A stretch of 64,000 bases of DNA. Origin: Streptomyces caniscabiei (GTDB lineage: Bacteria; Actinomycetota; Actinomycetes; Streptomycetales; Streptomycetaceae). Made by a program: the position numbers and the translations under genes. Below are positions 11,352-30,263 of the stretch, in pieces. Location: the NCBI RefSeq assembly GCF_014930365.1, contig NZ_JABXWI010000008.1:186001-250000 (forward strand), read 5' to 3'. A model generated the notes under the pieces. The model saw only the letters and a program-made list of their open reading frames with translations, was not told where the DNA came from and searched no databases. Positions within the stretch are counted from its first letter, which is position 1; each line of letters begins with the position of its first letter.

Positions 11352-14300
11352 TCACTTCGGGTTCCGCTCCGCCCACGCGACGAGCCCACGGAGGGCACGG
11401 AACCAGGTCTCGGCGAGATCCTGGACCGTGTCGCGCGGCAGCAGTCCTTCCAGATACGACCAGTGCGCGGCCAGCACCGGCCCGTCCGCACGGTCCTCGG
11501 TCACCACGTTGATCTCCAACGCGTGGCCCTCCCGCATCGAGCCCTCCGCCCCGATGTCCGCGGCGTCCTCCTCCGGCGCGTACGACCAGTCCGTCTCCTC
11601 GGGGATGCCGAACCGGCCCAGGTAGTTGAACTCGACGCGCGGCGGTTCGTAGGCCGCCAGCACCTCGCGGGTGCGGGGGTTGAGGTGCCGCAGCATCCCG
11701 TACCCGACGCCGTTGGCGGGCAGTGCCGCGAGGTGCTCCCGCACCCGGCGCACGGCCTCGGCCGCCGCCGGGCCCCCGGCGAAGGCCTCGTCGGGGTCGG
11801 CCGGACCCGCGTCCAGCCGGACCGGGTAGACGCTGGTGAACCAGCCGACCGTACGCGACAGGTCGATCCCGTCCCCGCCCAGCTCCTCCTCGCGGCCGTG
11901 GCCTTCGAGGTCGACCAGGACGGAGGTGTCCGCACCGCCGTCCCGGCGCCGCCGGTCCGCGAAGGTGAGCGCGAGCCCCGCCAGCAGTACGTCGTTGACG
12001 GCGGCGCCGAACGCGGCCGGCACCGCCGACAGCAGGGGACCGGTGTGCTCGCCGGGCAGCCGGAGCACGACCTCGCGCCGGGTGGCGCTGGTGTCGCGGT
12101 CGGGATCCCGGTCCCGCGCGAGCGGCAGGGAGGCCGCGCCGCCGGCGAGAATCCCCTCCCACACGGGCAGTTCGGCCTCCCGCTCCGGCCGCCCGGCCAG
12201 CTCCGTGAGCAGCCGCGACCAGCGGGCGAACGACGTCTCGACGGGCAGCAGCCCGACGGGCCGCCCGGCGGACACGTCCTGCCAGGCCGCCGCGAGGTCC
12301 GGCAGCAGCACCCGCCACGACACACCGTCCACGACGAGATGGTGCCCCATCAGCAGTAGCCGTCCTGGGGCGTCGCCCGCGTCGAACCACACGGCCCTGA
12401 CCATGACTCCGGCGTCCGGGTCGAGCGACGCCCGTGCCGCGACGGTGTGCTCCCGCACGGCCTCGCCCAGCGCGACCGCGTCCAGCCCGCGGACATCGAC
12501 CCGCTCGGTCCAGCCGGCCGGGTCCACCGTCCCGACGGGCGGCACGTGCAGCGACCACCCGTCGGTGTCCTCGGCGGAGGGCCGGACCAATCGGGCGCGC
12601 AGCAGGTCGTGCCGGTCGACGAGTGCCCGCAGCACGGCGGTCAGACCGGGCAGGTCCAGGGCCGCCGGAGTGCGGACCAGCGCCGCCTGGTGGTAGGAGG
12701 CGAAGGGGCCACCCAGCTCGCGCAGCCAGTGCATGACCGGCGTGAGCGGCACCGTGCCGGTGCCGTCGTCCGCCGGGCGCGGCGCCGAGACGTCGTTCGC
12801 CTCGGCGACCGTGCCCAGCGCGGCGACCGTACGGTGCCGGAACACCAGCCTCGGACTGATCCTCAGCCCCGCCGCGCGGGCCCGCCCCACGAGCTGCATG
12901 GCGACGATGCTGTCACCGCCGAGGGCGAAGAAGTCGTCGTCCACACCGACCCGTTCGAGGCCCAGCACCTCCGCGAAGACCGCGCACAGCAGCTCCTCCA
13001 CGGCGGTCGCCGGTGCCCGTCCCGAAGACATCGCGGCGAAGTCGGGCGCGGGCAGGGCGGACCGGTCCAGCTTGCCGTTGGCCAGCTGCGGGAACCGCTC
13101 CAGCGTGACCACGGCCGCCGGGACCATGTGGTCGGGGAGCAGACCGGCGACATGGGCACGCAGCGCCGCCGGGTCGGGCGCGGTGTCCGGGACCGGCACC
13201 ACATGGGCCACGAGCAGCTTGCGCGGACCATCCTGATGGACCGTCACCAGCGCCTGGCCGACCTCCGGGTGGGCGGTGAGCGCGGCCTCGATCTCGGCGG
13301 GCTCGATGCGGAACCCGCGGATCTTGACCTGGTCGTCGGCGCGGCCGAGGTAGTCGATCCGCCCGTCGGCGGTCCAGCGCGCCAGGTCGCCCGTGCGGTA
13401 CAGGCGTGATCCGGCCGGACCGAACGGATCGGCGACGAACCGCTCGGCCGTCAGACCGGGGCTGCCCAGATAGCCGCGGGCGAGACCGCCGCCCGCGAGG
13501 TACAGCTCACCGGGGACACCGGGCGGCACCGGCCGCAGCCGGTCGTCGAGGACGTACGCCCGGGTGCCGGCCACCGGCCGCCCCACGAGCGGCCGTTCGC
13601 TGTCGCGGACGCGGCCGACGAGGGCGTCCACGGTCGACTCGGTCGGCCCGTACAGGTTGAACGCCTCGGTGCCGGGCAGTTCGGACAGCCGCTTCCACAG
13701 CGCGACCGGCACGGCCTCGCCGCCGACGCCGACGACCGCGAGCGGGCAGTCGCCGTCGCGCAGCAGCCCGCTGTCGGCCATCTGTGCGAAGAACGACGGC
13801 GTGACCTCCAGGAAGTCGAAGCGGTGCCGCAGCACGGCCTCGGTCACCAGCTCCGGGTCGCGCCGGACCTCCTCCGACAGCACATGGACACAGTGCCCGT
13901 CCAGCAGCCACAGCTGCGGCTGCCAGGACGCGTCGAAGAAGAACGACCAGGCGTGACCGACCCGCAGATGCCGCCGCCCGGCCGCCTCGATCGCCGGTTC
14001 GTACAGCGTCTCGCGGTGGCTGTGGAAGAGGTTGCCGAGCGTCTCGTGGGTGATGACCACGCCCTTGGGCCGGCCGGTGGAGCCCGAGGTGTAGATGACG
14101 TACGCCGGGTGGCGGGGCGTCAGCGGGGCGAGCCGGTCGACGTCGGTGAGGTCGGCCGGGTCCTCGGCCGCGATCCGGTCCCGGGTGCCGGGGTCGTCCA
14201 GCAGCAGGGAGGCGATGCCGGACGGCAGTGTGCCGGCGAACTCTCCGGTCGTCAGGGTGAGGACCGGTCCGGCGTCCGCGAGAACGTCGGCCGTGCGCTC

Positions 14301-30263: not shown

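Follow-up and report, generated by a model that had tools for sequence, protein, structure and literature searches.

The term "tris-hydroxamate" for this kind of compound is taken from the title under which Kodani 2013 appears in the accessible part of PMC8914351, and the same text reports that S. scabiei 87-22 produces both from one cluster. Albisporachelin of Amycolatopsis albispora starts with N-Me-fhOrn - Ser and ends in a cyclised hydroxyornithine (hOrn); according to the portion of that paper available, it has four residues with N-methyls on residues 1 and 4 (PMC6024995), whereas the product predicted here has five, with N-methyls on 1 and 3. The S. scabiei 87-22 scabichelin cluster (SCAB_85471; L081, L005) shares with the locus described here its modules, methyltransferases (MT), epimerisation (E) domain, adenylation (A) codes 1, 2, 3 and 5 and nine accessory genes, and differs at module 4, which has an Orn code (DGWDAGLVD) in S. 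scabiei 87-22 and a Ser code (DVWHLSLVD) here. The preliminary description of our locus had proposed an alignment with the S. scabiei and S. turgidiscabies synthetases. This alignment gave the same five-module plan, with Ser at module 4 shared between our enzyme and that of S. turgidiscabies Car8 (L091). The Car8 cluster also has the nine accessory genes, but its synthetase is 71% identical to ours over the N-terminal query, its gene order differs, and in a tree of modules 2-3 it lies on another branch, beside six-module enzymes. We take S. turgidiscabies to be the source species of turgichelin, and for scabichelin we assume the connectivity of its published structure.

Our locus lies in a 64,000-nucleotide stretch (the window) of the 10.9 Mb genome of Streptomyces caniscabiei. 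An open frame with a GTG start at 11352-30263 on the reverse strand (GC3 = 0.94) encodes a five-module NRPS of 6303 amino acids, with the domain order C-remnant-A1-MT-PCP / C2-A2-PCP / C3-A3-MT-PCP / C4-A4-PCP / C5-A5-PCP-E (all domain bounds are approximate, and all lie on the reverse strand). Pfam assigns five domains each to the AMP-binding, carrier and Condensation (C2, C3, C4, C5 and the terminal E) families and two to the methyltransferases, in agreement with the five modules first described. The N-methyltransferases were placed by motif and Pfam searches in module 1 (27084-28346) and module 3 (19584-20771), as had been stated, and the final epimerisation domain (11394-12716; HHLVVDGVS) was identified from the sequence and by Pfam. 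This layout, one NRPS of five modules that carries methyltransferases in the first and third and ends in an E domain, is the architecture of the scabichelin/turgichelin type. At the N-terminus, residues 1-205 (29649-30263) form a condensation remnant that has no HHxxxDG motif; most close relatives align from query residues 1-10, so this remnant is conserved in the family. Much of the family retains it, even though a condensation domain is not required in an initiation module.

The neighbouring genes likewise form a scabichelin/turgichelin-type accessory set, with N5-hydroxylase, formyltransferase, uptake, export and MbtH genes. On the forward strand lie two ABC exporter subunits (6226-8031 and 8028-9986), a periplasmic-type siderophore binding protein with an uncertain start codon (9986-11050), two FecCD-type ferric siderophore permeases (30415-31503, whose true start may lie downstream, and 31568-32677) and a FecE/FepC-type ATPase (32682-33611). 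The ornithine hydroxylase and formyltransferase that had been attributed to the locus were both found, as an ornithine N5-monooxygenase at 34732-36063 on the forward strand and, at 33664-34611 on the reverse strand, a formyltransferase expected to act in N5-formylation of hydroxyornithine. Pfam and a search added a 69-residue MbtH-like protein (11125-11334, reverse strand) that was absent from the preliminary gene list. When 11 neighbour genes were tested, 9 were found in S. scabiei and 10 in S. turgidiscabies, with the nine accessory genes present in both. Flanking genes at 3522-6038 encode a DyP-type peroxidase and an amidohydrolase; both also lie beside the cluster in one other genome (G176), and the amidohydrolase does so in S. 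turgidiscabies.

Candidate iron-box-like sites occur in both divergent promoters of the cluster. The first, a DmdR1/IdeR-like iron box (TAAGGTAAGGGTTACCTAA; 30324-30342, forward strand), lies between the NRPS and permease genes, and the second (34633-34651, reverse strand) between the formyltransferase and monooxygenase genes. A relaxed iron-box pattern, drawn after the first site had been seen, matched these two sites and none in 100 shuffles, and a pattern of the published consensus allowing up to three mismatches matched nothing. Of the 9 relatives aligned, 7 carry the same TAAGGTAAGGGTTACCTAA; in S. turgidiscabies the site is a variant, and the stretch from Streptomyces sp. MNU76 did not align. 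DmdR1 boxes of the same form are given for a scabichelin cluster in the text available of PMC7174319.

We surveyed relatives using both the monooxygenase and the synthetase. Among the best 80 of 550 relatives in a monooxygenase search were S. scabiei 87.22 (89%) and S. turgidiscabies Car8 (71%). All 22 of those genomes that were compared with the NRPS over its first 640 residues gave a match at E <= 1e-100; in 19 the identity was at least 71%, in some over part of the query, and in the other three it was only 51-58%. S. scabiei matches this segment at 89%, within a 6376-residue frame (G005/L081), and by sequence the window NRPS is an orthologue of the S. scabiei scabichelin synthetase. Of the 392 genomes of the genus, 38, counting the one that contains the window, hold family members at E <= 1e-200. 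The 46 synthetases whose codes were read comprise 22 five-module enzymes with Ser at position 4 (counting S. ipomoeae, although its frame is broken), 12 five-module enzymes with Orn at position 4, 8 six-module Orn-Ser enzymes, 3 six-module Ser-Ser enzymes and 1 with a broken frame, that of Streptomyces sp. MNU76, whose A4 is Ser-type by tblastn and 92.6% identical to the window A4.

The six-module relatives (for example Planotetraspora mira, Streptomyces sp. M41 and a plasmid of Streptomyces sp. NBC_01558) agree with the window at positions 1-3, at the last position and in the C3 signature, but place an Orn-Ser or Ser-Ser pair between hOrn3 and the final hOrn and carry an additional condensation domain, C6, with QHLLLDG. 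Presumably they make albachelin-like hexapeptides, and it is plausible that the five-module enzymes derived from six-module ones. In these C6 domains, for example that of Streptomyces sp. GQFP, QHLLLDG has its first and not its second His replaced. The complete NBC_01558 member (Orn-Ser; L220, NZ_CP109366.1) is carried on a 678 kb linear plasmid; an acetylglutamate kinase gene (argB, ornithine supply) lies inside its cluster and an amidohydrolase gene follows MbtH. Another genome of the genus, G321, has two synthetase copies in opposite orientation (G321:C1:778644 and G321:C1:10760267). They sit roughly 0.78 Mb inside either end of an 11.5 Mb contig, an arrangement resembling terminal inverted repeats. 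Elsewhere in the genome that contains the window (G000:C60:313007-319067), an MbtH gene adjoins a pair of NRPS frames, 1580 and 1695 residues long, and frame pairs of the same lengths occur in S. scabiei, S. stelliscabiei and S. europaeiscabiei; these could be the synthetases with which scab pathogens make thaxtomin.

Specificity codes were read at positions anchored on the GrsA A domain, using a fragment confirmed against 1amu. As aligned by MAFFT, the window codes are DVWILGATN for A1 (28344-29591), DVWHLSLVD for A2 (24108-25193), DMWNLGLIN for A3 (20904-21995), DVWHLSLVD for A4 (16659-17636) and DAWEGGLVD for A5 (13464-14486). The codes are alignment-dependent near positions 238-239 and 301, and one method was used throughout the strain comparison. 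The third letter of A3 and A5 is an alignment matter because a gapless reading gives E (DMENLGLIN) and Q instead of W; at position 239 of A5, MAFFT and the published code (DAWEGGLVD) both have W. Position 301 of A1 is G in our reading, and in one relative (B93) the same position is A in one reading and G in another. Of the preliminary code letters, the Ser and hOrn classes therefore hold, while DVWILAATN is read here as DVWILGATN and DAQEGGLVD becomes DAWEGGLVD as aligned. Our own reading assigned Ser to modules 2 and 4 (for A4 also by the core tree) and N5-hydroxyornithine to module 3, the same residues as before.

By this single method, the S. scabiei codes are identical to those of the window over nine residues at positions 1, 2, 3 and 5. 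The A1 code is identical in all 46 synthetases read, S. scabiei included, and positions 1, 2, 3 and the last each hold one specificity class wherever they were read. From scabichelin orthology, A1 is expected to load N5-formyl-N5-hydroxyornithine, and DAWEGGLVDK is printed as the scabichelin hydroxyornithine code in the accessible part of PMC7692728. The preliminary description had weighed a non-ornithine residue at A1 or A5; none was seen. It had also been unable to match codes 1 and 5 and had left room for a new congener on that ground, a proposal that we rejected, as a single reading method gives both codes exactly as in S. scabiei.

The sequence itself shows the domain architecture, the orthology, the A codes, the set of genes and the box-like sites; from these we infer, as follows, which substrates are used, through which nitrogen they are joined, how the chain is released, which proteins transport it and what the product is. 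The monooxygenase would N5-hydroxylate ornithine, and the formyltransferase would N5-formylate part of this pool. The synthetase would then assemble N-methyl-fhOrn - Ser - N-methyl-hOrn - Ser - hOrn, with residue 3 joined through its N5-hydroxylamine to give an internal hydroxamate. After joining through its alpha-amine and epimerisation, the last hOrn would close its own N-hydroxylactam, and this would release the chain. The product, with three hydroxamates, would be exported by the ABC pair, and its iron complex would return via the binding protein, FecCD and FecE. Since the formyl group and the lactam account for two of the hydroxamates, residue 3 is the only site left for the third, and Ser2 would have to acylate N5 of hOrn3; C3, which lacks the usual second His, would form this internal hydroxamate.

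Three hydroxyornithines, two Ser, two N-methyls, one formyl and one ring closure give C24H44N8O11, with a calculated monoisotopic mass of 620.3130. This agrees with the published turgichelin formula, given for [M-H]- as C24H43N8O11 in the part of PMC10458595 available, and the calculated mass of the Orn variant, 647.3602, matches the 647.36 given for scabichelin in the corresponding part of PMC7692728. The S. scabiei orthology, the A4 codes and the predicted formula all support the turgichelin-like two-Ser chain of the preliminary description. The formula alone cannot separate one formyl and two N-methyls from one acetyl and one N-methyl, and the arithmetic thus allows isomers with a different acyl group at position 1, 3 or 5, for example acetyl for formyl. 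The conserved condensation remnant of about 205 residues could in principle add a cap. We nevertheless consider a new congener of either sort very improbable: S. scabiei and S. turgidiscabies have identical codes at 1, 3 and 5, the acyl-transfer gene of the cluster is a formyltransferase, and S. scabiei, whose products are known, shares the same N-terminus. The cluster is a further member of the known scabichelin/turgichelin kind, with no new congener needed, and very probably an iron-regulated siderophore cluster that makes turgichelin.

The choice between turgichelin and scabichelin would be made at A4. The module 4 codes are DVWHLSLVD in the window and DVWHMSLVD in S. turgidiscabies (both Ser), and DGWDAGLVD in S. 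scabiei and S. stelliscabiei (Orn). In a tree of A4 and A5 cores, all 20 Orn A4 cores form one clade (support 100) apart from the Ser cores, and the window A4 falls among the latter. Since S. scabiei makes both compounds from one cluster, the A4 code does not strictly fix the product, and a similarly loose A4 in our synthetase could yield scabichelin, with Orn at position 4, or a scabichelin-dominated mixture; the precedent is the single S. scabiei synthetase reported in PMC8914351 (accessible text). Set against this, the window A4 groups away from every Orn core, and the window and S. scabiei proteins are only 26-45% identical over residues 4321-4500. We therefore judge a scabichelin-type outcome to be likewise very improbable, and retain turgichelin as the predicted product.

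Position 4 appears to have changed often. On the modules 2-3 tree its residue requires at least eight changes, and S. scabiei and S. stelliscabiei (Orn) are nested in an otherwise Ser-type clade that holds the window. Identity between the window and S. scabiei is 87-88% before residue 4300 and after residue 4640, and 53% between. Within the compared residues 3601-5700, the sharp drop is limited to C4-A4-PCP4: it begins within C4 and ends near PCP4, and there S. stelliscabiei resembles S. spinoverrucosus. In the window, the stretch differing from S. scabiei and S. stelliscabiei runs from C4 to PCP4 (residues ~3841-4740; 16044-18743, reverse strand), with flanks alike. This confinement makes the position-4 switch look like an exchanged cassette, and position 4 looks like it has been switched repeatedly by such exchange. 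Replacement of A domains is a known driver of NRPS diversity, as stated in the part of PMC7486941 available. We also considered the window A4 as a copy of its own A2 and rejected this, as the two are 67.6% identical compared with 90% between the window A4 and that of S. ipomoeae.

The condensation domain preceding A3 departs from the canonical motif. C3 (22044-23366, reverse strand) has RHLILWDG, encoded near 22923-22943, in which HHxxxDG has lost its second His or has it shifted from the usual spacing; neither this nor the N-terminal remnant figured in the preliminary description. All 46 family synthetases carry this signature, as RHLILWDG in 27 and RHLLLWDG in 19, and a DNA pattern for it was found in 39 of 392 genus genomes, namely the 38 family genomes and G109, whose enzyme has four modules. 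The condensation domain before A5 keeps both His residues (HHIAGDE). Both C4 (17694-18956) and C5 (14598-15938) of the window have HHxxxDE instead of HHxxxDG. A change of this DE type is tied to a small acceptor in fuscachelin in the accessible part of PMC8097023, whereas the C4 and C5 acceptors here are Ser and hydroxyornithine.

We aligned 251 condensation domains from the 46 synthetases and 58 further stretches. In the second-His column, all 83 domains that precede a DMWNLGLIN-type A domain lack His (Leu in 80, Met in 2, Thr in 1), compared with 1 of the 168 other domains, for which the residue loaded by the A domain was unread. The second His is kept before Ser in 87 of 87 domains, before Orn in 20 of 20, before the last hOrn of the scabichelin family in 44 of 44, and before other coded or unread A domains in 16 of 17; the one exception, L174, has an unreadable code and an A domain resembling the hOrn type. 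Forty of the added stretches were selected by the HxxxWDGW pattern and so are uninformative about the frequency of canonical domains before hOrn. A less biased sample is given by 20 stretches chosen by A-domain match, of which 18 are His-less and 2 canonical (L148 and L155, which are not among the rows of the 251-domain alignment; L148 and L149 overlap in one gene).

How the second His is lost reads differently by method. The 251-domain alignment and a HMMER comparison with PvdL indicate a substitution by Leu, and a five-sequence MAFFT alignment shows a one-residue insertion. In shallow AlphaFold models, the strand ends five residues before the Asp in both C3 (mean pLDDT 74.0) and C2 (63.2). 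Class-wide, 22 of 316 genomes match the C3 pattern. Among 19 new loci, 16 have a following A domain 60-82% identical to the window A3 with the same code, one ends early and two are not NRPS; the last code letter reads V in these loci because the aligned piece ends there. L205, from outside the class, also fits and is the only match outside the genus in 296 phylum genomes.

Longer stretches allowed us to compare domains within one enzyme. In L201, L202 and L203 a canonical condensation domain precedes the last hOrn module of the frame. The internal hOrn modules of L201 and L202 have the same A code and are preceded by HTLLWDG or HMLLWDG, and the last module by HHIAGDEWS. Coelichelin-type three-module synthetases such as L198 likewise have a His-less condensation domain (YHLLLWDGWS) ahead of the hOrn A domain; these differ from the window in having three modules, with codes DINYWGGIG and DFWNIGMVH (Thr-like) first and hOrn (DMWNLGLIN) last. 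We call L198 coelichelin-type by the CchH codes, and we take the last hOrn residue of coelichelin to be N5-acylated. In L198 hOrn is last and the condensation domain before it is nevertheless His-less, so module position alone is not the rule. The way of joining, rather than position or substrate, fits the signature best, given these assumed or inferred structures.

These data suggest a distinct clade of condensation domains, xH(L/M/T/F)xxWDGWS, in which a non-basic residue takes the place of the second His and which would make a backbone hydroxamate by acylating the N5-hydroxylamine of hOrn. The hydroxylamine nucleophile would be neutral at physiological pH and so may not need a general base. 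We hold this proposal at even confidence. The loss could instead be a lineage mark of a condensation-domain type that travels with the hOrn A domain, unlinked to bond chemistry. In a tree of 85 condensation domains, all 37 His-less rows form one group with a single canonical row inside, so the cases are not independent origins and point to one origin kept across several synthetase families rather than many independent losses. A lineage mark alone accounts less well for L201 and L202, where the same aligned A code follows a canonical domain in the last module and a His-less one internally, or for the last hOrn of the scabichelin family, which has a different code and keeps the second His in every one of its 44 cases. 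We regard it as the less likely, though a serious, alternative to a role in hydroxamate formation. The canonical row inside the group is L203 (HHILTDGWS, before the last hOrn; support 85), possibly a reversion, on a long branch.

The role of the second His of HHxxxDG is still debated (PMC8097023, PMC11546977; accessible portions). Literature searches, with most subscription journals outside their scope, returned no printed account of His-less hydroxamate-forming condensation domains, and the portions available of PMC8097023, PMC11546977, PMC10212144 and PMC12971057 contain none.

With this cluster the probable turgichelin makers gain one more member, and one exchanged C4-A4-PCP4 cassette would explain why close relatives make scabichelin, a natural experiment in synthetase re-programming. 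In our view the C3 signature matters more than the cluster. The missing second His is common, at the sequence level, to the window and other probable makers of hydroxamate iron scavengers, and a His-less clade in intact synthetases, together with same-substrate domains that keep the His, makes the role of this residue testable. If the proposal is true, the motif would allow N5 joining of hydroxyornithine to be told from joining at the alpha-amine by sequence alone and, if borne out, would give structure predictors a rule for hydroxamate regiochemistry.
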